Under the pieces are notes generated by a model. The model was not told the origin of the DNA, made no database searches, and was given only the letters and a program-made list of their open reading frames with translations. 64,000 nucleotides of DNA from Poseidonibacter lekithochrous (lineage in GTDB: Bacteria > Campylobacterota > Campylobacteria > Campylobacterales > Arcobacteraceae): assembly GCF_013283835.1 (NCBI RefSeq), contig NZ_CP054052.1, positions 2,108,001 through 2,172,000 of the forward strand. Direction: 5' to 3'. The position numbers were made by a program, and so were the translations under genes. Every line of letters starts with the position of its first letter. Position 1 is the first letter of the stretch. Below, in pieces: positions 11,936-21,282 of this stretch.

Positions 11936-14560
11936 ATGTATAGAATAATCTTATTTATATTTATAGTAATTTTTTTTAATAGTTGTGGCTCTAATAATGA
12001 AAATAAAACTGGATACTTTATTGATGCACCAGTAAGTGGGATTGAATACACTTGTGGTTCTCAACAAGGATTTACAGGAGAAAATGGAGAGTTCACATAT
12101 AATTCCTCGTGTAAAGTAGTATTCACAGTAGGTGGAATTGTATTAGGAGAAATTAATGGTGAGGATATCAACACTGATAGCAATGTTTTGCCTTCTGATA
12201 TTATGGGTGTTAGTAGAGAGAACATAACTGATACAAAAGTTGTAAAGTTAATACAATTCTTACAATCTATAGATAATGATGATAATCCAGACAACAATAT
12301 TGTCATTACAAAAGATACTCATAAAGCCTTACTAAATTGTGATTTTAATTTTGAAAAAGACAAAGATCATACTGCTGATATTGTAGAAGCAATAACAATA
12401 TTAAATAAAAAGCTAGTTTCTAAAGAACAAGCAATTTCACACTACAAAAAAGAACTAGAAAAAAGACTTCTTATAAAACCTACGAAAGAGGAAGTAAAGA
12501 CTGTAAACATTCCAAAAGAAGAAGTAAGTGAAAATATAGTTCTTGATGAACCAGAAAAAGAAATAAAAGAGCCCAAAATAACGCCTATTAAAATAGTGAT
12601 TAAAAAACCTATTGAAAAAATAGCTATTGTAGAGGAAACTCCTGAAGTAATCGAAGAGATTGCTCTAGTGGAAGAAGTTGTTGAACAAGAAGAAACTCCC
12701 GAGGTAGTTGAAGAAGTAATAGAGGAAATTGCTTTAGTTGAGGAAATTGTTGAGCAAGAAGAAGAGATAGCTGAACCTATCGTTGAAGAAATTGCTCAAG
12801 AAGAAACTCCTGAAGTAGTTGAAGAACCAATTGTAGAAGTTGCTCTTCTAGAAGAAGTTATTGAACAAGAAAAAGTGATTGTTGAACCTATCGTTGAAGA
12901 AATTGCTCAAGAAGAAACTCCTGAAGTAGTTGAAGAACCAATTGAAGAAATTACTTTAGTTGAGGAAGTTATTGTTGAGCAAGAAGAAATAATAGTTGAG
13001 CCTATCATTGAAGAAATAGTTCAAGAAGAAACTCCCAAAGTAGGAGAAGAAGCAATCGAGGAAATCGTTCTTGTGGAAGAAGTGATTGCGCAAGAAGAAA
13101 TAATTGTTGAACCTATCGTTGAAGAGGTAGTTCAAGAAGAAACTCCAGAAGTGGTTGAAGAACCGGTTGAAGAAATAGCTCTTGTGGAAGAAACTATTGA
13201 ACAAGAAGAAGTAATTATTGAACCTATCGTTGAAGAAATTGCTCAAGAAGAAACTCCTGAAGTAGTTGAAGAACCAATCGAAGAAATTGCTTTAGTTGAG
13301 GAAATTGTTGAGCAAGAAGAAGTAATTATTGAACCTATCGTTGAAGAAATTGTTCAAGAAGAAACTCCTGAAGTAATTGAAGAACCAATCGAGGAAATTG
13401 TTGAGCAAGAAGAAGAAATAGTTGAACCTATCATTGAAGAAATAGTTCAAGAAGAAACTCCCGAAGTAGTTGAAGAACCAATCGAAGAAATTACTTTAGT
13501 TGAGGAAGTTATTGTTGAGCAAGAAGAAATAATAGTTGAGCCTATCATTGAAGAACTTGTTCAAGAAGAAACTCCTGAAGTAATTGAAGAGCCAATTGTG
13601 GAAGTTGCTCTTGTGGAGGAAGTGATTGAGCAAGAAGAAATAATAGTTGAACCTATCGTTGAAGAAGTTGTTCAAGAAGAAACTCCAGAAGTTGTTGAAG
13701 AACCAATCGAAGAAGTTGCTCTTGTGGAAGAAGTGGTTGAGCAAAAAGAAGTGATTGTTGAACCTATCGTTGAAGAAGTTGTTCAAGAAGAAACTCCCGA
13801 AGTAGTTGAAGAACCAATCGAAGAAGTTGCTCTTGTGGAAGAAACTATTAAACAAGAAGAAGTAATTGTTGAACCTATCATTGAAGAAATAGTTCAAGAA
13901 GAAATTCCCGAAGTAATTGAAGAACCAATTGTAGAAGTTGCTCTTGTGGAAGAAGTTGTTGAGCAAGAAGAAGTGATTGTTGAACCTATCGTTGAAGAAG
14001 TTGTTCAAGAAGAAACTCCTGAAGTAATTGAAGAGCCAATTGTAGAAGTTGCTCTTGAGGAAGAAACTATGGAACAAGAAGAAGTGATTGTTGAACCTAT
14101 CGTTGAAGAAATAGTTCAAGAAGAAACTCCTGAAGTGGTTGAAGAAGCAATTGAAATAGAAGAAGAAATAGTTGAGCCTATTGTGGAAGAAGAAGTTCTA
14201 GATGAAAGTTCACCATTTAATCTAAGTATAGAAACAGAAAACATAAATACAAATCAAGATGATATAGGGTTCTCTTATGAAAACCAAAGAGATGTAAATA
14301 TAAATATCTCTGTTGAGAATTCATTGTCAAACAAACAAGTACTACTATATGAAAATATGAGTATTACTCCTACACCAGTAGGTGATTTGGAAAAACTAGA
14401 AAACATAATAATATCAACTGTATTTAATTTAGATGGAGAATTAAACCTAACTTATACATTAGGTAATCATATAACAAGCATATGGTTAGTTATCCCATTT
14501 TATGGCTTAACTATGGAAATACCAATTTCTGATAACAATGTTTATTTAGTATTAGAATAA
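11936..14560 (+). CDS. Lipoprotein with long acidic Glu/Val/Pro repeat region
   Basis: An 874-residue protein with a lipobox (IFFNSCGS, Cys at about residue 17). Residues ~25-165 form a globular domain of a type common in surface lipoproteins (starting YFIDAPVSGIEYTC, with GFTGENGEFTY and a LIQFLQSIDNDDNPD segment). Residues ~230-755 are an acidic repeat array of about 13 units of the pattern EPIVEEIVQEETPEVV plus a variable EEIALVEEVVEQEE part. The last ~120 residues are a beta-rich domain. It is probably surface- or periplasm-anchored, with the array as an extended spacer. Start ATG follows an AAGGAG site. It is 9 bases upstream of the LruC gene, so they are one operon. The repeats create long open frames on the opposite strand that I regard as artefacts. 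Confidence 0.85.
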   Translation: MYRIILFIFIVIFFNSCGSNNENKTGYFIDAPVSGIEYTCGSQQGFTGENGEFTYNSSCKVVFTVGGIVLGEINGEDINTDSNVLPSDIMGVSRENITDTKVVKLIQFLQSIDNDDNPDNNIVITKDTHKALLNCDFNFEKDKDHTADIVEAITILNKKLVSKEQAISHYKKELEKRLLIKPTKEEVKTVNIPKEEVSENIVLDEPEKEIKEPKITPIKIVIKKPIEKIAIVEETPEVIEEIALVEEVVEQEETPEVVEEVIEEIALVEEIVEQEEEIAEPIVEEIAQEETPEVVEEPIVEVALLEEVIEQEKVIVEPIVEEIAQEETPEVVEEPIEEITLVEEVIVEQEEIIVEPIIEEIVQEETPKVGEEAIEEIVLVEEVIAQEEIIVEPIVEEVVQEETPEVVEEPVEEIALVEETIEQEEVIIEPIVEEIAQEETPEVVEEPIEEIALVEEIVEQEEVIIEPIVEEIVQEETPEVIEEPIEEIVEQEEEIVEPIIEEIVQEETPEVVEEPIEEITLVEEVIVEQEEIIVEPIIEELVQEETPEVIEEPIVEVALVEEVIEQEEIIVEPIVEEVVQEETPEVVEEPIEEVALVEEVVEQKEVIVEPIVEEVVQEETPEVVEEPIEEVALVEETIKQEEVIVEPIIEEIVQEEIPEVIEEPIVEVALVEEVVEQEEVIVEPIVEEVVQEETPEVIEEPIVEVALEEETMEQEEVIVEPIVEEIVQEETPEVVEEAIEIEEEIVEPIVEEEVLDESSPFNLSIETENINTNQDDIGFSYENQRDVNINISVENSLSNKQVLLYENMSITPTPVGDLEKLENIIISTVFNLDGELNLTYTLGNHITSIWLVIPFYGLTMEIPISDNNVYLVLE
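12640..14200 (+). repeat. In-frame tandem repeat array (about 13 units of 108-120 bp)
   Basis: Units share the core GAACCTATCGTTGAAGAA and CAAGAAGAAACTCC (with silent and conservative changes) and average about 110 bp. One unit near 13,380-13,420 is shortened by an in-frame deletion, which suggests that the copy number changes by recombination or slippage. Confidence 0.9.
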
Positions 14561-17046: not shown

Positions 17047-17057
17047 ACTACCTTCTA
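17033..17057 (+). terminator. Bidirectional hairpin between aat and the mcrB remnant
   Basis: A perfect 9-bp stem TAGAAGGTA (17033-17041) / TACCTTCTA (17049-17057) spanning the aat stop codon and the end of the convergent remnant gene. Confidence 0.6.
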
Positions 17058-17495
17058 ATTATAAATTTTTAAATAACTAGTAATATTTAAAAATGCTTCT
17101 TCGTTGATTTTATATTCTTGTTCTTCTGTTTTTATAAATTGATATTTTTTATTATCATCAATTTTTTTATCATCCCCTAAAACTATTCTTATCTTTTCCC
17201 AGTCATTATCAAAATATTTTTGTAATAATGGAATAATTCTGTCTTTGAAGATAACACCTAATTCAATTTTCGCTTCAGTATTTTGCTTCCCTACTAAACT
17301 TGTAAAATATCCATGTGAAATAATATGGCTTCTACCCTGCTCAAGTTGAATTCTTTTGTTAACAGTTTTTAATAAAAGTTTGATATTTATTCCCTCAATA
17401 TCTTCAATTTCATTTAAAACTTTTAGATTTGGATCTAAATCATTTCTTGGTATTTTTTTGCTCATCTTCGAGATAATCCTAACTTCTAGCTTCAT
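17055..17495 (-). pseudogene. C-terminal remnant of an McrB-like restriction AAA+ ATPase
   Basis: A 146-codon frame whose last ~115 residues look like the C-terminal end of McrB-type AAA+ GTPases: IEGINIKLLLKTVNKRIQ, then GRSHIISHGYFTSL (usually IGHSYF), then FKDRIIPLLQKYFDNDWEKI with IVLGDD. McrB proteins are normally 450 or more residues. Walker A and B are missing here, so this is a truncated relic of an McrBC-type modified-DNA restriction system. The first ~25 residues do not fit the family. A second short frame just upstream (ATG about 17555, MKQEIKNMISKFKELEFM, stop at about 17,484) may be another scrap. No mcrC is nearby. Confidence 0.7.
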
Positions 17496-17643
17496 TGTTC
17501 ATAAATTCTAATTCTTTAAACTTACTTATCATATTTTTGATTTCTTGTTTCATTTTCTAACTATAATTTAAGTGCTTATAGAAATAATTATTGATATAAA
17601 ATTTGCACTTAATCTTCAATTCATGTATATAATACCTTTTTTA

Positions 17644-17681
17644 CGTCACAACTAGCGTCACAAATGTGACAAAATTATGAC
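17644..17681. promoter_or_regulatory. Operator cluster before the 7TMR-DISM kinase gene
   Basis: On the minus strand 17661-17644 reads GTGACGCTAGTTGTGACG, two GTGACG half-sites 12 bp apart. On the plus strand TGTGAC (17665-17670) and ATGAC (17677-17681) add two more half-sites. The 18-bp block recurs with three mismatches before the acyltransferase-like gene at 20425. It lies about 40-75 bp upstream of the kinase -10 box and is probably the site of the neighbouring response regulator. Confidence 0.6.
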
Positions 17682-17720
17682 AAATTTCAAATATTTAATA
17701 TTTTAACACTTTACTTAATG

Positions 17721-17726
17721 TATAAT
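17721..17726 (+). promoter_or_regulatory. -10 box of the kinase/regulator operon
   Basis: A perfect TATAAT preceded by TTAATG, 26 bp before ATG 17753; downstream of the half-site cluster. Confidence 0.6.
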
Positions 17727-17752
17727 ATTCAAAAATATAGGTTTTCATTATT

Positions 17753-19597
17753 ATGTGGCATTACAAAATATTATTAATTATTTTTATCAACAGCTATCTA
17801 TCTGCGCAAGTTTTAAACATTCCTAATCAAAATGGTTTTTATGATCTACTACCAAAATCTCAAATTTATGTGGATAATTCTCAAAAGAAAACATTTGAAG
17901 AAATATCAAATAACCCTCAATATTTCATTAAAAATGACAAAAAATTAATTGGCTATGGATACTCACCAAATATAAATGTATGGATTAAATTCAAAATTCA
18001 TAATAAAACAAATAAAAAAGTCTATAGAGTTTTAGAATATGATAATGCACTAACTACAAACATAAAATTTTATTCTCCTGATAATGAATATAAGTATGTA
18101 CAAGAGGGGCTTTATAATATAAATGAGAATAGAAAAACTATTAATCCTAATTTCTCAATTCAATTAGAAGCAAATGAAAGTAAAACTTATTATATACAAG
18201 CCTCTTCTTATATAACTACACTTATTGTAAAACTAAATCTTTGGGAAAATGATTCTTATTTTACAAATGAAATTAAGTACCAAATTATATTAGCCTTTTT
18301 CTTTGGAGCTATGATTATTCTAGCTTTATATAATCTATTTATCTATTTTATCACTAAAGATAATAGTTACTTATTTTATGTAATTTATATTTTTGGAATT
18401 GTACTTCATCAGTTAATGTACAGAGGTATTGCAAATATTTATATGTTGAGTCCAGAATGGGTAGAAAATGTAATTAGATATGCCTCTTTAATTACTGGAT
18501 TACCAGTACTTGCGTTAGCACTGTTTACAAGATCATTTCTTCGTACACAACAATATCCTAAACTTCATAAACTACTAAATATTTATCTTTTAGCTTTTCC
18601 TTTTATATTAACAATCTTTTTATTCACAGACATGTTTAATAAATATAGAAATGTATTTAGTGTTCTATTATTAGTATTTTTAATTAGTATTACTATTTAT
18701 GCCACATTCAAAAAAAACAGACAAGCTTATTTTGTACTCTTTGGCTGGGCGATGTTCTTTACTGTTGGTATGTTTATGTACCTATCAAGTCTAGGAGTTT
18801 TTAATATTTATAGCTCTTTCCCTTATTATATTGAAGTTGCTTTGATTATTGAAGCTATTGTTTTCTCTATTGCCTTAGCTGATAGAATCAAACAATTACA
18901 GGTGGATAAAGAAAATGCAAATAAAGAACTAATACTTCAACAAGAAAATGAGAAAAATAGACTGGAAATAAAAGTAGAAGAAAAAACCCATGATTTAAAA
19001 ACTGCATTAGATGAAAAAGGTCTTTTGTTAAAAGAATTAAATCATAGAGTAAAAAACAATATGCAAACTATAGTATCCCTAATTAGGCTACAAAGTGATG
19101 AAATAGAAGATGAAAAAGTTCAAGATTTATTTATCACTATTCAAAATAGAATTAATGCGATGAGTCATTTACATGAACTACTATACAAACAAGATAATAT
19201 CGCAAATGTTAATGCTTATGAGTATTTTGAGCTATTAATTGAAGAGGTTCAATATAGTTATAACACTGCTGTTCAAATAAAATTTGATATTAAAACACAA
19301 CTAAAAATTGAGCAGGCTATTTATTGTGGATTGATTCTAAATGAGTTGATTTCAAATTCATTCAAATATGCCTTTCCTACGAATGAAGGAAAAGTATTTA
19401 TTAATTTAGAAAAAAAAGAAGATACCTTTGTATTAACAGTAAAAGATAATGGTGTTGGTTACGATCAAAGTGCACCATCAAACTCTTTGGGTTTAATTCT
19501 AGTAGAAACACTAGCAAAAGAACAACTAAAAGGTGATATAAAAATCAAAACTAATGATGGGGTTACAGTAATAATAAGTTGGAAAGAAAACATATGA
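17753..19597 (+). CDS. 7TMR-DISM sensor histidine kinase (HisKA_2 type)
   Basis: A 614-residue membrane sensor kinase. After a signal sequence, residues ~30-165 form a periplasmic 7TMR-DISMED2-like sensing domain (WIKFKIHNKTNKKVYRVLEY). Residues ~180-380 carry seven transmembrane helices (7TMR-DISM). A coiled coil at ~385-425 leads to a HisKA_2 phosphoacceptor ELNHRVKNNMQTIVSL (His at about 430) and an HATPase domain with GLILNELISNSFKYAF and DNGVGY. It senses an unknown, possibly small-molecule, signal outside the inner membrane and phosphorylates its partner. The response regulator ATG overlaps this stop (ATGA). The matching operator before this gene suggests autoregulation. Confidence 0.9.
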   Translation: MWHYKILLIIFINSYLSAQVLNIPNQNGFYDLLPKSQIYVDNSQKKTFEEISNNPQYFIKNDKKLIGYGYSPNINVWIKFKIHNKTNKKVYRVLEYDNALTTNIKFYSPDNEYKYVQEGLYNINENRKTINPNFSIQLEANESKTYYIQASSYITTLIVKLNLWENDSYFTNEIKYQIILAFFFGAMIILALYNLFIYFITKDNSYLFYVIYIFGIVLHQLMYRGIANIYMLSPEWVENVIRYASLITGLPVLALALFTRSFLRTQQYPKLHKLLNIYLLAFPFILTIFLFTDMFNKYRNVFSVLLLVFLISITIYATFKKNRQAYFVLFGWAMFFTVGMFMYLSSLGVFNIYSSFPYYIEVALIIEAIVFSIALADRIKQLQVDKENANKELILQQENEKNRLEIKVEEKTHDLKTALDEKGLLLKELNHRVKNNMQTIVSLIRLQSDEIEDEKVQDLFITIQNRINAMSHLHELLYKQDNIANVNAYEYFELLIEEVQYSYNTAVQIKFDIKTQLKIEQAIYCGLILNELISNSFKYAFPTNEGKVFINLEKKEDTFVLTVKDNGVGYDQSAPSNSLGLILVETLAKEQLKGDIKIKTNDGVTVIISWKENI

Positions 19598-20286
19598 AAA
19601 GAAGAATATTAATAGTAGAAGACCAAACAGTGATTTCACTTGGACTTAAAAGAGAAATCATAAAGCTTGGACATGAAGTTGTAGCAACTGCTACAAACTA
19701 TGATGATGCCATATATAGTATTGAACAAAAAAAACCTGATATTATAATCATGGATATACACTTAGGAAATGATTGTAAAGATGGTATTGATATAGCTGAT
19801 ACTATTAGACTAGAAGGTAATCAAACACCTATTTTGTACATAACAGCCTATTCAGACGAAATAACTCTAAGTAGAGCGGCACAAACTAATCCTGTTGGAT
19901 ATATGACTAAACCATATAAGAATGATGATTTAAAATCAACATTAATATTAACTATCTATAAAATTGAACAAGCAAATAAGGAGATGATTGAAAAAATAAG
20001 AAAACCACTTGGTTATGACTATTATTATGACCCAGAAAATGAAAACCTTTTTTACAAGGATATACCAATACAATTAAGTGTAAAAGAGTCTACATTACTA
20101 AAAATGCTTTTTGAAGCAAAAGAAATGATAGTACCTTTTAGCAAACTAGAATATATAATTTGGCCTGATGGTCCAGTATCAAATAGCACGCTTCGAACAC
20201 TAAATTACAGACTTAGAGCAAAACTTGACAACAAACTTATAGAAACAATCCCCTCTTTTGGCATAAAATTAACAATTCATAAATAA
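19594..20286 (+). CDS. Response regulator, receiver plus OmpR-type winged helix
   Basis: A 230-residue regulator starting at ATG 19594, which overlaps the kinase stop as ATGA. A TTG at 19579 is less likely. The receiver domain (~1-120) shows VEDQ acidic residues, phospho-acceptor Asp in IIIMDIHLG (about 50), Thr/Ser in YITAYS and Lys in MTKPYK. The C-terminal ~90 residues are a Trans_reg_C winged helix (LSVKESTLLKMLFEA, recognition region STLRTLNYRLRAKL). It should bind DNA as a dimer on direct half-sites and is the natural candidate for the GTGACG repeats found upstream of its own operon and of the next gene. Confidence 0.9.
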   Translation: MKRRILIVEDQTVISLGLKREIIKLGHEVVATATNYDDAIYSIEQKKPDIIIMDIHLGNDCKDGIDIADTIRLEGNQTPILYITAYSDEITLSRAAQTNPVGYMTKPYKNDDLKSTLILTIYKIEQANKEMIEKIRKPLGYDYYYDPENENLFYKDIPIQLSVKESTLLKMLFEAKEMIVPFSKLEYIIWPDGPVSNSTLRTLNYRLRAKLDNKLIETIPSFGIKLTIHK

Positions 20287-20314
20287 TCTTTTTTTATACC
20301 TTATCAAATTTATA

Positions 20315-20345
20315 ATATTACTCATCCCTAGCGATGATGTAATAT
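20315..20345 (+). other. Hairpin in the gap between the regulator and the acyltransferase-like gene
   Basis: ATATTACTCATC (20315-20326) pairs with GATGATGTAATAT (20333-20345) with one bulge and loop CCTAGC. No T run follows on the plus strand, so it may attenuate or stabilise the mRNA rather than terminate it. Confidence 0.4.
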
Positions 20346-20424
20346 CTACAAAAAAACACAATCCTTTACTTATTTAATCACCTATTCTAAAAAATTATTA
20401 CTTCCTAATGCCTAATTTTTTCTT

Positions 20425-20450
20425 GTGACGCTAGCTATGACGCCGCATAA
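20425..20450 (+). promoter_or_regulatory. Operator and -10 box of the LuxI/FeeM-like gene
   Basis: GTGACGCTAGCTATGACG (20425-20442) has two TGACG half-sites 12 bp apart and matches the block upstream of the kinase operon at 15 of 18 positions on the opposite strand. A CATAAT at 20445-20450 follows at once as a probable -10 box, placing the site where an activator would contact polymerase. The start codon is 39 bp further on. Confidence 0.6.
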
Positions 20451-20488
20451 TTAGTATCCGTCCTATCTTAAAAGATAAGGATGAAAAA

Positions 20489-21247
20489 ATGTTTAACATA
20501 AACAAAAATATAACGTTAAACCAACTAGAAAAAAATATACAAGAAATCTTGTATAAAAAAATCGATTGTATGCCAGAAGATTTCAATCATGAAATGAAAT
20601 TGGCTCTAGAATTATTTCAAAAAAGAGTTTTTTTAGAAAAAACTATAGATGAGACTATCTCTTTCAACAAACAGTTTATTTGGGAAAATAAAAACAAAAA
20701 TCTTTCATTAGCAACTACTGCTGAAGACCTACTCAATGTATTCAAATTAAGAAGTAATATTTATGGAAACTTGAATTATCAAGATGAATTTCCTGATTTT
20801 ATAAATGGATTAAATTTTGATAATTATGATTTTACATCTGCTATTATTTTGTATAAAAGCAATGGTGTTATTTCAGGTACTACAAGAATAATTGTAGACT
20901 CAGAAAACAGACTTCCAATTGAGCATAAATTCTCATTAGATAACTATCGTGGTATAAATAAAACAATAGCTGAACTATCAAGACTAATTGTAAGTAATGA
21001 AAATAAAGGTTTGAATCTAGAATTCAAATATCTAATGCAGGGAATATATCAACTATATTCTCAAAATGATTTAGATCTAATGTTTTTGGTTATTGTAAAA
21101 GAACACTATAAACTGTATTCAAAATTTGGAGGCAGTGAGATAATTAAGGAGTTTGATGACTATGGAAATTTAGGTCATGGAACTATGATTTTATCATGGG
21201 ATCCAAGTAAGGTTTCAAAATTCTTTGAAAAAGCATTTTTGAAATAA
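20489..21247 (+). CDS. LuxI/FeeM-fold N-acyltransferase-like protein
   Basis: A 252-residue protein whose C-terminal ~180 residues resemble the autoinducer-synthase/FeeM branch of the GNAT fold. Features are VFKLRSNIYGNLNYQDEFPD (the R..Y/F...EFPD entry of the family, about residue 85), SGTTRIIVDSENRLPIE (R..RL...LP strand, about 130) and IAELSRLIVSNENKG (the ELSR motif, about 165). Such enzymes move an acyl chain from acyl-ACP onto an amine such as homoserine lactone precursor or an amino acid. The first ~70 residues are not recognised. Start ATG lies 8 bases after AAGG. It has its own promoter with the kinase/regulator operator, suggesting it produces or modifies a signal under their control. 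Product unknown. Confidence 0.65.
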   Translation: MFNINKNITLNQLEKNIQEILYKKIDCMPEDFNHEMKLALELFQKRVFLEKTIDETISFNKQFIWENKNKNLSLATTAEDLLNVFKLRSNIYGNLNYQDEFPDFINGLNFDNYDFTSAIILYKSNGVISGTTRIIVDSENRLPIEHKFSLDNYRGINKTIAELSRLIVSNENKGLNLEFKYLMQGIYQLYSQNDLDLMFLVIVKEHYKLYSKFGGSEIIKEFDDYGNLGHGTMILSWDPSKVSKFFEKAFLK

Positions 21248-21250
21248 AAT

Positions 21251-21282
21251 AAAAAAGAGTCTTAACTTAAGACTCTTTTTTT
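21251..21282 (+). terminator. Bidirectional terminator between the acyltransferase-like gene and rlmF
   Basis: Perfect stem GAGTCTTAA (21257-21265) / TTAAGACTC (21267-21275) flanked by A6 and T8, symmetrical and usable from both convergent genes. Confidence 0.9.

Follow-up and report, generated by a model that had tools for sequence, protein, structure and literature searches.

Genes and features of the locus

The locus lies within a stretch of DNA of 64,000 nt, the whole of which was analysed and is referred to here as 'the window'. A sensor kinase, a response regulator and an N-acyltransferase are encoded in one direction, with promoter elements of a common kind at either end of the two-component pair. 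The features are listed below, with the evidence for each in parentheses.

17055–17495, minus strand: small gene 3' of the leftward box, similar to a C-terminal part of the McrB GTPase (6ut3 match)
17630–17635, minus strand: leftward promoter, –10 element TATTAT (family-wide –10 alignment)
17644–17661, minus strand: box of the leftward promoter, upstream of the kinase gene (motif search and family-wide –10 alignment)
17666–17682, plus strand: degenerate half-site pair GTGACAAAATTATGACA, with an 11-base period, facing the kinase; role putative (sequence)
17753–19597, plus strand: sensor kinase, 614 aa, with 7TMR-DISMED2, 7TMR-DISM_7TM, HisKA_2 and HATPase_c domains (Pfam)
19594–20286, plus strand: response regulator, 230 aa, with a receiver (Asp54) and a Trans_reg_C winged helix, and presumed to read the box (Pfam; box counts across genomes)
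20425–20442, plus strand: acyltransferase promoter box, predicted to occupy –39 to –22 (motif search, orthologous loci, –10 alignment)
20452–20457, plus strand: –10 element TAGTAT, with a predicted transcription start near 20464 (TANNNT position fixed in 153 sites)
20459–20483, plus strand: inverted repeat with the Shine-Dalgarno sequence in its 3' arm; the 5' arm spans the predicted start (arms 20459–20468 and 20473–20483)
20489–21247, plus strand: LuxI/FeeM-fold N-acyltransferase, 252 aa (PF21926, predicted model, FeeM match)
21251–21281, strand unassigned (listed on the minus strand): terminator-like stem 3' of the acyltransferase

The Pfam domains support the original prediction of a 7TMR-DISM kinase with its regulator. 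The phospho-acceptor of the kinase is His431, in the motif LNHRVKNN, and the regulator, with its receiver aspartate and Trans_reg_C domain, is of the OmpR/PhoB type. A terminator was looked for between regulator and acyltransferase, and none was found; the stem beyond the acyltransferase is symmetrical and flanked on each side by a run of T.

The acyltransferase

The LuxI/FeeM-type fold proposed for the third gene, whose absence had been defined beforehand as refuting, is present. The protein belongs to the FeeM family (PF21926; 62.7 bits, cut-off 27), and its AlphaFold2 model (pLDDT 87.1) finds its best fold match in FeeM (2g0b_C; Z 18.6, 170 residues, rmsd 2.7), followed by the acyl-homoserine lactone (AHL) synthases LasI, RpaI, BjaI and MesI (Z 16.6–17.2). 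PF00765, the profile of the LuxI AHL synthases, gave no match for the window protein in the profile search of its own genome; a homologue in another genome (G043) does match it (29.6 bits, cut-off 24). Residues E162 and R165, together with R88, D111, D114 and R133, resemble the LuxI residue set. Membership of the PEP-CTERM/exosortase acyltransferases was rejected (TIGR03694; 33.1 bits against a cut-off of 111.95), as was a PEP-CTERM context, a search of the 104 genomes of the family having found no exosortase at E 0.001. FeeM (2g0b), an N-acyl amino acid synthase, is of the same Pfam family as the window enzyme; the two differ in that the sequence match is weak (E 0.0074), in an extra N-terminal part of ~68 residues, and in gene context. 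Enzymes related to FeeM make lipids. The reaction of the window enzyme is probably the transfer of a fatty acyl group onto an amine.

The box and its promoter architecture

Two GTGACG-type blocks had been predicted, and they lie at the positions and on the strands proposed: GTGACGCTAGTTGTGACG at 17644–17661 on the minus strand, and GTGACGCTAGCTATGACG at 20425–20442 on the plus strand. Their identity is 16 of 18 bases rather than 15. At no more than one mismatch these are the only two copies in the window; shuffled windows contain 0.02 on average, and none of 100 shuffles contains two. The whole genome (3.57 Mb) has exactly five exact matches, and the reversed-pattern control none. GTGACGCTAG is common to all five, and is absent from the two one-mismatch sites. 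Weaker boxes in this genome were set aside, matches at three mismatches being as numerous as in the reversed control. The occurrence of the box at both loci is confirmed, and is stronger than first stated. Chance resemblance of two sequences, a reading to which the presence of just two copies in the window lends itself, is ruled out by the genome count (five against none in the control), by boxes at orthologous positions in dozens of genomes, and by the link between box and regulator described below.

The box is part of a larger promoter. A TANNNT element stands at the family's fixed distance from all five genome boxes, and its position relative to the box is constant across 153 sites in the family-wide alignment. 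The extended form TGTGAC-N6-TGTGAC-N10-TANNNT fits all five, the acyltransferase copy among them with one mismatch. This alignment corrects the claim that the downstream box touches its –10: TAGTAT lies nine bases past it. The upstream box, with TATTAT at 17635–17630, is a leftward promoter that points away from the kinase. What was described as an operator shared by the kinase operon and the acyltransferase is present at both, but the copy at the kinase end faces the other way; judged from sequence, it is a promoter element of class II-like type that serves several targets. The extra TGAC half-sites proposed ahead of the kinase do exist (GTGACA at 17666 and ATGACA at 17677). Leftward of the divergent box lies the small McrB-like gene (E 4.5e-8, residues 19–119). 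Divergent transcripts from the kinase side have related products within one genus; a single such product across genera was looked for and not found.

Conservation of the module and of the box–regulator link

We surveyed 104 genomes of the Arcobacteraceae. The acyltransferase occurs in 41 and adjoins the kinase in most of these, and the full module—kinase, regulator, box and acyltransferase—is found in most of the 41. The box lies 35–46 bases 5' of the acyltransferase start, exactly in 26 of 41 loci and with one mismatch in five more, and is missing at a few; absence of the repeat from orthologous loci, the outcome defined beforehand as refuting, did not occur. The module extends beyond these 104 genomes too, and cultured carriers include Malaciobacter halophilus DSM 18005 and, for the acyltransferase, Sulfurospirillum arcachonense DSM 9755. 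Kinase and regulator are kept without the acyltransferase in genomes G006, G013, G014 and G031, and in such genomes the boxes lie elsewhere, a distribution that fits either eavesdropping or an output-only enzyme.

The box follows the regulator, in support of the link proposed between the two. At least two boxes are present in 38 of 47 genomes that carry the regulator, and in three of the 57 others (Fisher 2.6e-16, a value that overstates independence because the genomes are related), and the link is also seen in genomes without the acyltransferase. The regulator of the window is presumed to be the reader. The box might instead be a promoter recognised by an alternative sigma factor, or be read by another regulator, the neighbouring two-component system being incidental; we consider this very improbable. 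A fixed distance from box to –10 would suit a sigma factor too, but tandem half-sites with a 12-base period and a TANNNT –10 fit a winged-helix dimer working with the housekeeping polymerase. Genomes contain several regulator paralogues, any of which could read the box; box number, however, tracks close homologues of the window regulator, and in relatives boxes also precede a second regulator gene. Several targets of the box are of conflict type (SIR2, TIR, HetE-N, KAP, Old/GajA-like and Tmn/YobI). We do not claim that the regulon is enriched for defence: by PADLOC tally, 69 targets were not clearly richer than 78 neighbouring genes.

An inverted repeat over the Shine-Dalgarno sequence

The inverted repeat in the acyltransferase leader has a mean z of –3.5, against +0.15 in other box-driven leaders. 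Because the lengths of arms and loops differ from leader to leader, RNAalifold on a MAFFT alignment gave no consensus structure; an arm-swap (permutation) test was used in its place, and none of 20,000 arm permutations reached the native level of pairing. The sequences themselves reveal that the repeat covaries. It is stronger where a co-directional gene lies upstream (p 3e-5, again overstated, the leaders being related), and occurs also at some non-tandem loci. We abandoned the idea that the hairpin is simply an RNA switch within the mRNA of the gene itself, as the predicted start falls in the 5' arm. By analogy with phage, RNA that reads through from upstream should be silent, and RNA from the gene's own promoter translated. 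The repeat could alternatively be a DNA operator for a putative repressor. This is improbable: a repressor site would be expected to overlap the –10 and the predicted start, and the 5' arm does so, but pairing is preserved between species whose repeats differ greatly in sequence and loop length, the Shine-Dalgarno sequence sits in the 3' arm, and the repeat is weaker or absent without a co-directional gene upstream.

Proposed circuit

We propose that the phosphorylated regulator would bind TGTGACR-N5-TGTGACR over the –35 region and recruit polymerase to the TANNNT –10 at its fixed distance. The promoter would drive the acyltransferase, a second regulator gene in many relatives, and a small, variable regulon. 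Transcription start would cut the inverted repeat, such that read-through from the kinase and regulator genes is sealed and own-promoter RNA translatable; with the regulator inactive, little enzyme would then be made. An acyl-amine is the probable product, and its probable target is the kinase, which would close a quorum-type loop with LuxM/LuxN-like logic. To this account as a whole we assign a probability of about 0.45. Its weakest step is the last, the putative identity of enzyme product and kinase ligand; with that step removed, the same account is highly probable.

The main alternative, which we put a little short of an even chance, leaves box, promoter and gate unchanged and makes the enzyme an output only. 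The kinase would sense an envelope or surface cue (an ion, a carbohydrate or stress), and the acyl-amine would be a membrane lipid, surfactant or antimicrobial rather than a kinase ligand. Several observations suit it. FeeM itself yields N-acyl amino acids, and related enzymes yield lipids; calcium binding is reported for the DISMED2 of the related sensor LadS, and the RetS counterpart is similar to a carbohydrate module; and the sensor co-evolves with the acyltransferase no more specifically than the module does as a whole (partial r 0.50 for the 7TM part against 0.49 for the regulator receiver). Kinase and regulator also occur without the enzyme, with boxes elsewhere, but receiver-only genomes are common for quorum receptors too. 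Adjacency of acyltransferase and kinase in most carriers argues against it, and a tight gate with positive control suits a signal synthase.

The loop in which the kinase senses the product can be carried further. Campylobacterota may have an acyl-signal quorum system of their own, with a FeeM/LuxI-fold synthase, a 7TMR-DISM receptor kinase, a dedicated TGTGAC promoter regulon to which, in some species, cell-defence genes belong, eavesdropping species that only receive, and a start-in-hairpin gate that silences the synthase until the regulator fires. We offer this tentatively, and would bet against it in its full form.

Significance and relation to known systems

There is hardly any description of acyl-type signalling in Campylobacterota, and the module may be a chemical signalling circuit there; it could also supply a ligand class for 7TMR-DISM kinases. 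A conserved module with a defined promoter element, in cultured strains, makes the question directly testable, and the promoter rule would make the regulon readable from sequence in any Arcobacter relative. We found no publication on the kinase–regulator–acyltransferase module in the open-licence literature, where most subscription papers are missing.

The promoter resembles those of PhoB-type class II activation in the Trans_reg_C family of its regulator, and in tandem half-sites over the –35 at a fixed distance from the –10. The PhoB half-site is TGTCA, with a period of 11; that of the window is TGTGAC, with a 12-base period, and the kinase is of the HisKA_2 type with a 7TMR-DISM sensor. The predicted gate resembles hairpins of phage T4 (I-TevI, e and soc), in which the ribosome site is sealed on long RNA and freed on own-promoter RNA (PMC2988022): in both, a conserved hairpin covers the ribosome site and the gene's own start, here predicted from the –10, lies in the 5' arm or beyond it. 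The window differs in having a bacterial, signalling-type gene and an activator-dependent promoter, with the effect predicted from sequence, and the gate would extend the T4 arrangement to a bacterial signalling circuit. Finally, in LuxM/LuxN and AinS/AinR of Vibrio, an acyl-homoserine lactone synthase has a histidine kinase in the membrane as its receptor (PMC5007282). The window, like them, couples an acyl synthase to a multi-pass membrane kinase, the synthase gene being linked to that of the kinase as in LuxM/LuxN-type quorum sensing. The differences are a synthase of another fold family (LuxM bears little resemblance to LuxI), a 7TMR-DISM sensor with a putative ligand, and a regulator predicted to bind DNA directly, in place of LuxU/LuxO.

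A conserved module and its acyltransferase

The genes for a sensor kinase, a response regulator and an acyltransferase, together with a shared DNA block termed the 'box' (TGTGACR-N5-TGTGACR), form a real, conserved regulatory module. In the window the genes, the first two assigned by domain content, are:

17753-19597, plus strand: sensor kinase, 7TMR-DISMED2/7TMR-DISM with HisKA_2
19594-20286, plus strand: response regulator, receiver with Trans_reg_C
20489-21247, plus strand: acyltransferase, Pfam FeeM member (62.7 bits; cut-off 27)

His431 of the kinase and Asp54 of the regulator are both in place. The acyltransferase has the LuxI/FeeM-type fold proposed in the original prediction: besides the Pfam match, an AlphaFold2 model built with 24 sequences (mean pLDDT 87.1) found RpaI, FeeM and LasI within the top six Foldseek entries, and on realignment was closest to FeeM (Z 18.6), followed by AHL synthases (16.6 to 17.2) and the best general GNAT enzyme (15.6). 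Searched against solved sequences, the acyltransferase profile found FeeM as the sole acyltransferase (E 0.0074). Invariant or near-invariant residues include E162, R165, R88, D111, D114 and R133; residues 1-67 are an extra part, outside the region covered by the fold matches. PF00765 (AHL synthase family) has matches in four Arcobacteraceae genomes, in one of them (G043) at the acyltransferase homologue itself, and FeeM and LuxI types are therefore close here. The separate matches over cut-off are G060:C18:41875, G061:C13:7097 (L327, L328) and G073:C11:3734. A PEP-CTERM-linked identity was ruled out, the window protein being a non-member; exosortase is absent from the 104 Arcobacteraceae genomes.

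The acyltransferase occurs in 41 of these 104 genomes, mostly at 40-62% identity, and in 12 of 298 sampled across the phylum, where carriers fall in two families. Records include Malaciobacter halophilus DSM 18005, Sulfurospirillum arcachonense DSM 9755 and MAGs labelled Sulfurimonas, Sulfuricurvum, Sulfurovum and Nitratifractor, several with the box immediately 5' of the gene. Most carriers have the order kinase, regulator, box, acyltransferase, often with a second box and second regulator added. At eight loci (L098-L100, L102, L105, L107-L109) the acyltransferase lies between two regulator genes that both have a box of their own, a layout that suggests a feed-forward step.

The box as a promoter element

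Both blocks reported in the window (17644-17661, minus strand; 20425-20442, plus strand) are present and alike, at 16 of 18 bases rather than the 15 claimed. Two matches with at most one mismatch occurred in none of the window's shuffles. The 3,568,672-base genome has five exact boxes (reversed control, 0); its next-best sites are clearly separated from these and lack their common CTAG. Among relatives, the repeat was found as anticipated at orthologous acyltransferase loci, 35-46 bases 5' of the start, exact in 26 of 41 (one copy is broken) and with one mismatch in 5 more.

Judged by its sequence context, the box is a promoter element. The consensus of 153 distinct aligned sites is TGTGACR-CAAAC-TGTGACR-N9-TANNNT, where the bases at fixed places in the −10 are T in 96%, A in 98% and T in 97%. 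Every one of the five sites in the P. lekithochrous genome fits this rule, four without mismatch. The predicted elements in the window are:

17635-17630, minus strand: −10 of the leftward promoter, TATTAT (promoter rule, box 17644-17661)
20452-20457, plus strand: −10 of the acyltransferase, TAGTAT (family-wide promoter rule)
20459-20468, plus strand: 5' arm of the inverted repeat discussed below (predicted start near 20464)

The downstream box, which ends at 20442, thus does not touch its −10, contrary to what had been claimed. The leftward box points to a small gene (17055-17495, minus strand) resembling the C-terminal part of McrB; it appears to be a C-terminal fragment of this GTPase encoded on its own. 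About 10 further loci likewise have the box and the kinase gene in divergent orientation, so calling the kinase-side box the kinase promoter would be too simple. Elsewhere in the window, ORF 11936-14560 (plus strand) is predicted to encode a lipoprotein of 874 aa. It contains a long tandem array rich in Glu, Val and Pro at 12671-14155, repeating every 111 bases (222 and 333 also occur as periods), with 6-7 copies in each block.

The regulator is the putative reader of the box. Genomes with a close regulator homologue (at least 150 bits) average 4.8 boxes versus 0.4 without (reversed control, 0.5 versus 0.7), and at least two boxes occur in 38 of the 47 with the homologue but in 3 of the 57 others (Fisher 2.6e-16, a value that overstates independence as the genomes are related). 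Six genomes have the regulator and no acyltransferase, and five of these still have at least two boxes; the presence of boxes thus tracks the regulator rather than the enzyme.

Boxes elsewhere are nearly all intergenic. They precede genes for small membrane proteins, lipoproteins, pseudopilin-like proteins and AraC, and conflict-type genes (SIR2, TIR, HetE-N, KAP, Tle1-like, Old, YobI/Tmn). The latter, as single genes, suggest a defence focus of the regulon, one not shown by comparison with neighbouring genes. In the P. lekithochrous genome, the box promoter at 2704144-2704161 (L007:5645-5662) precedes an apparent decayed stretch with an SbcC-like remnant and has no intact gene close downstream; that at 1520217-1520234 (L006:5218-5235) is followed 42 bases on by a 49-aa predicted membrane protein, then a fumarase gene. 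In G035, a box-driven 101-aa protein (L171:1117-1419) consists of a Trans_reg_C DNA-binding domain alone, lacking a receiver, and may be a competitor or co-regulator at the box.

A repeat over the ribosome site

In most acyltransferase leaders the Shine-Dalgarno lies in the 3' arm of an inverted repeat. The mean z of the repeat is −3.5 in 38 such leaders (33 below −1) versus +0.15 in 64 other box-driven leaders. Native arms pair at −7.65 kcal/mol versus −4.44 when swapped between species, the native level being reached in 0 of 20,000 permutations, and they also pair better outside the commonest sequence class. The 5' arm lies 14-22 past the box in that class; in the rest it falls mostly between 15 and 27. 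It spans the predicted transcription start, about 22 past the box, and RNA from the gene's own promoter would therefore lack much or all of the arm. A terminator was sought between regulator and acyltransferase in the window and none was found; read-through RNA from the kinase-regulator operon would keep the whole repeat, sealing the ribosome site. If such a gate operates, the repeat should matter only where the upstream gene is co-directional. Mean z is −3.87 at 36 co-directional loci and −1.45 at the remaining 13 (p 3e-5, without correction for kinship); the repeat is nonetheless present in some of the 13.

Signal circuit or output only

Whether the enzyme's product acts on the kinase, closing a signalling loop, or the kinase senses another cue and the enzyme is output only, we put at about even odds. 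The coupling of a signal-type synthase to a membrane kinase, the apparent positive control of the acyltransferase, the second regulator and the predicted tight gate speak for a signal circuit. Against the loop, or neutral towards it, are kinase-regulator pairs without acyltransferase in four genomes (G013, G014, G006, G031), the finding of no specific kinase-acyltransferase co-evolution, and the related sensor LadS, whose reported ligand is calcium (PMC7695008).

Comparison with known systems

Hairpin control of this kind is known from I-TevI, e and soc of phage T4 (PMC2988022), the same scheme as is predicted for the acyltransferase leader from its sequence. In its logic the module is an analogue of LuxM/LuxN (PMC5007282); it does not belong to that family.
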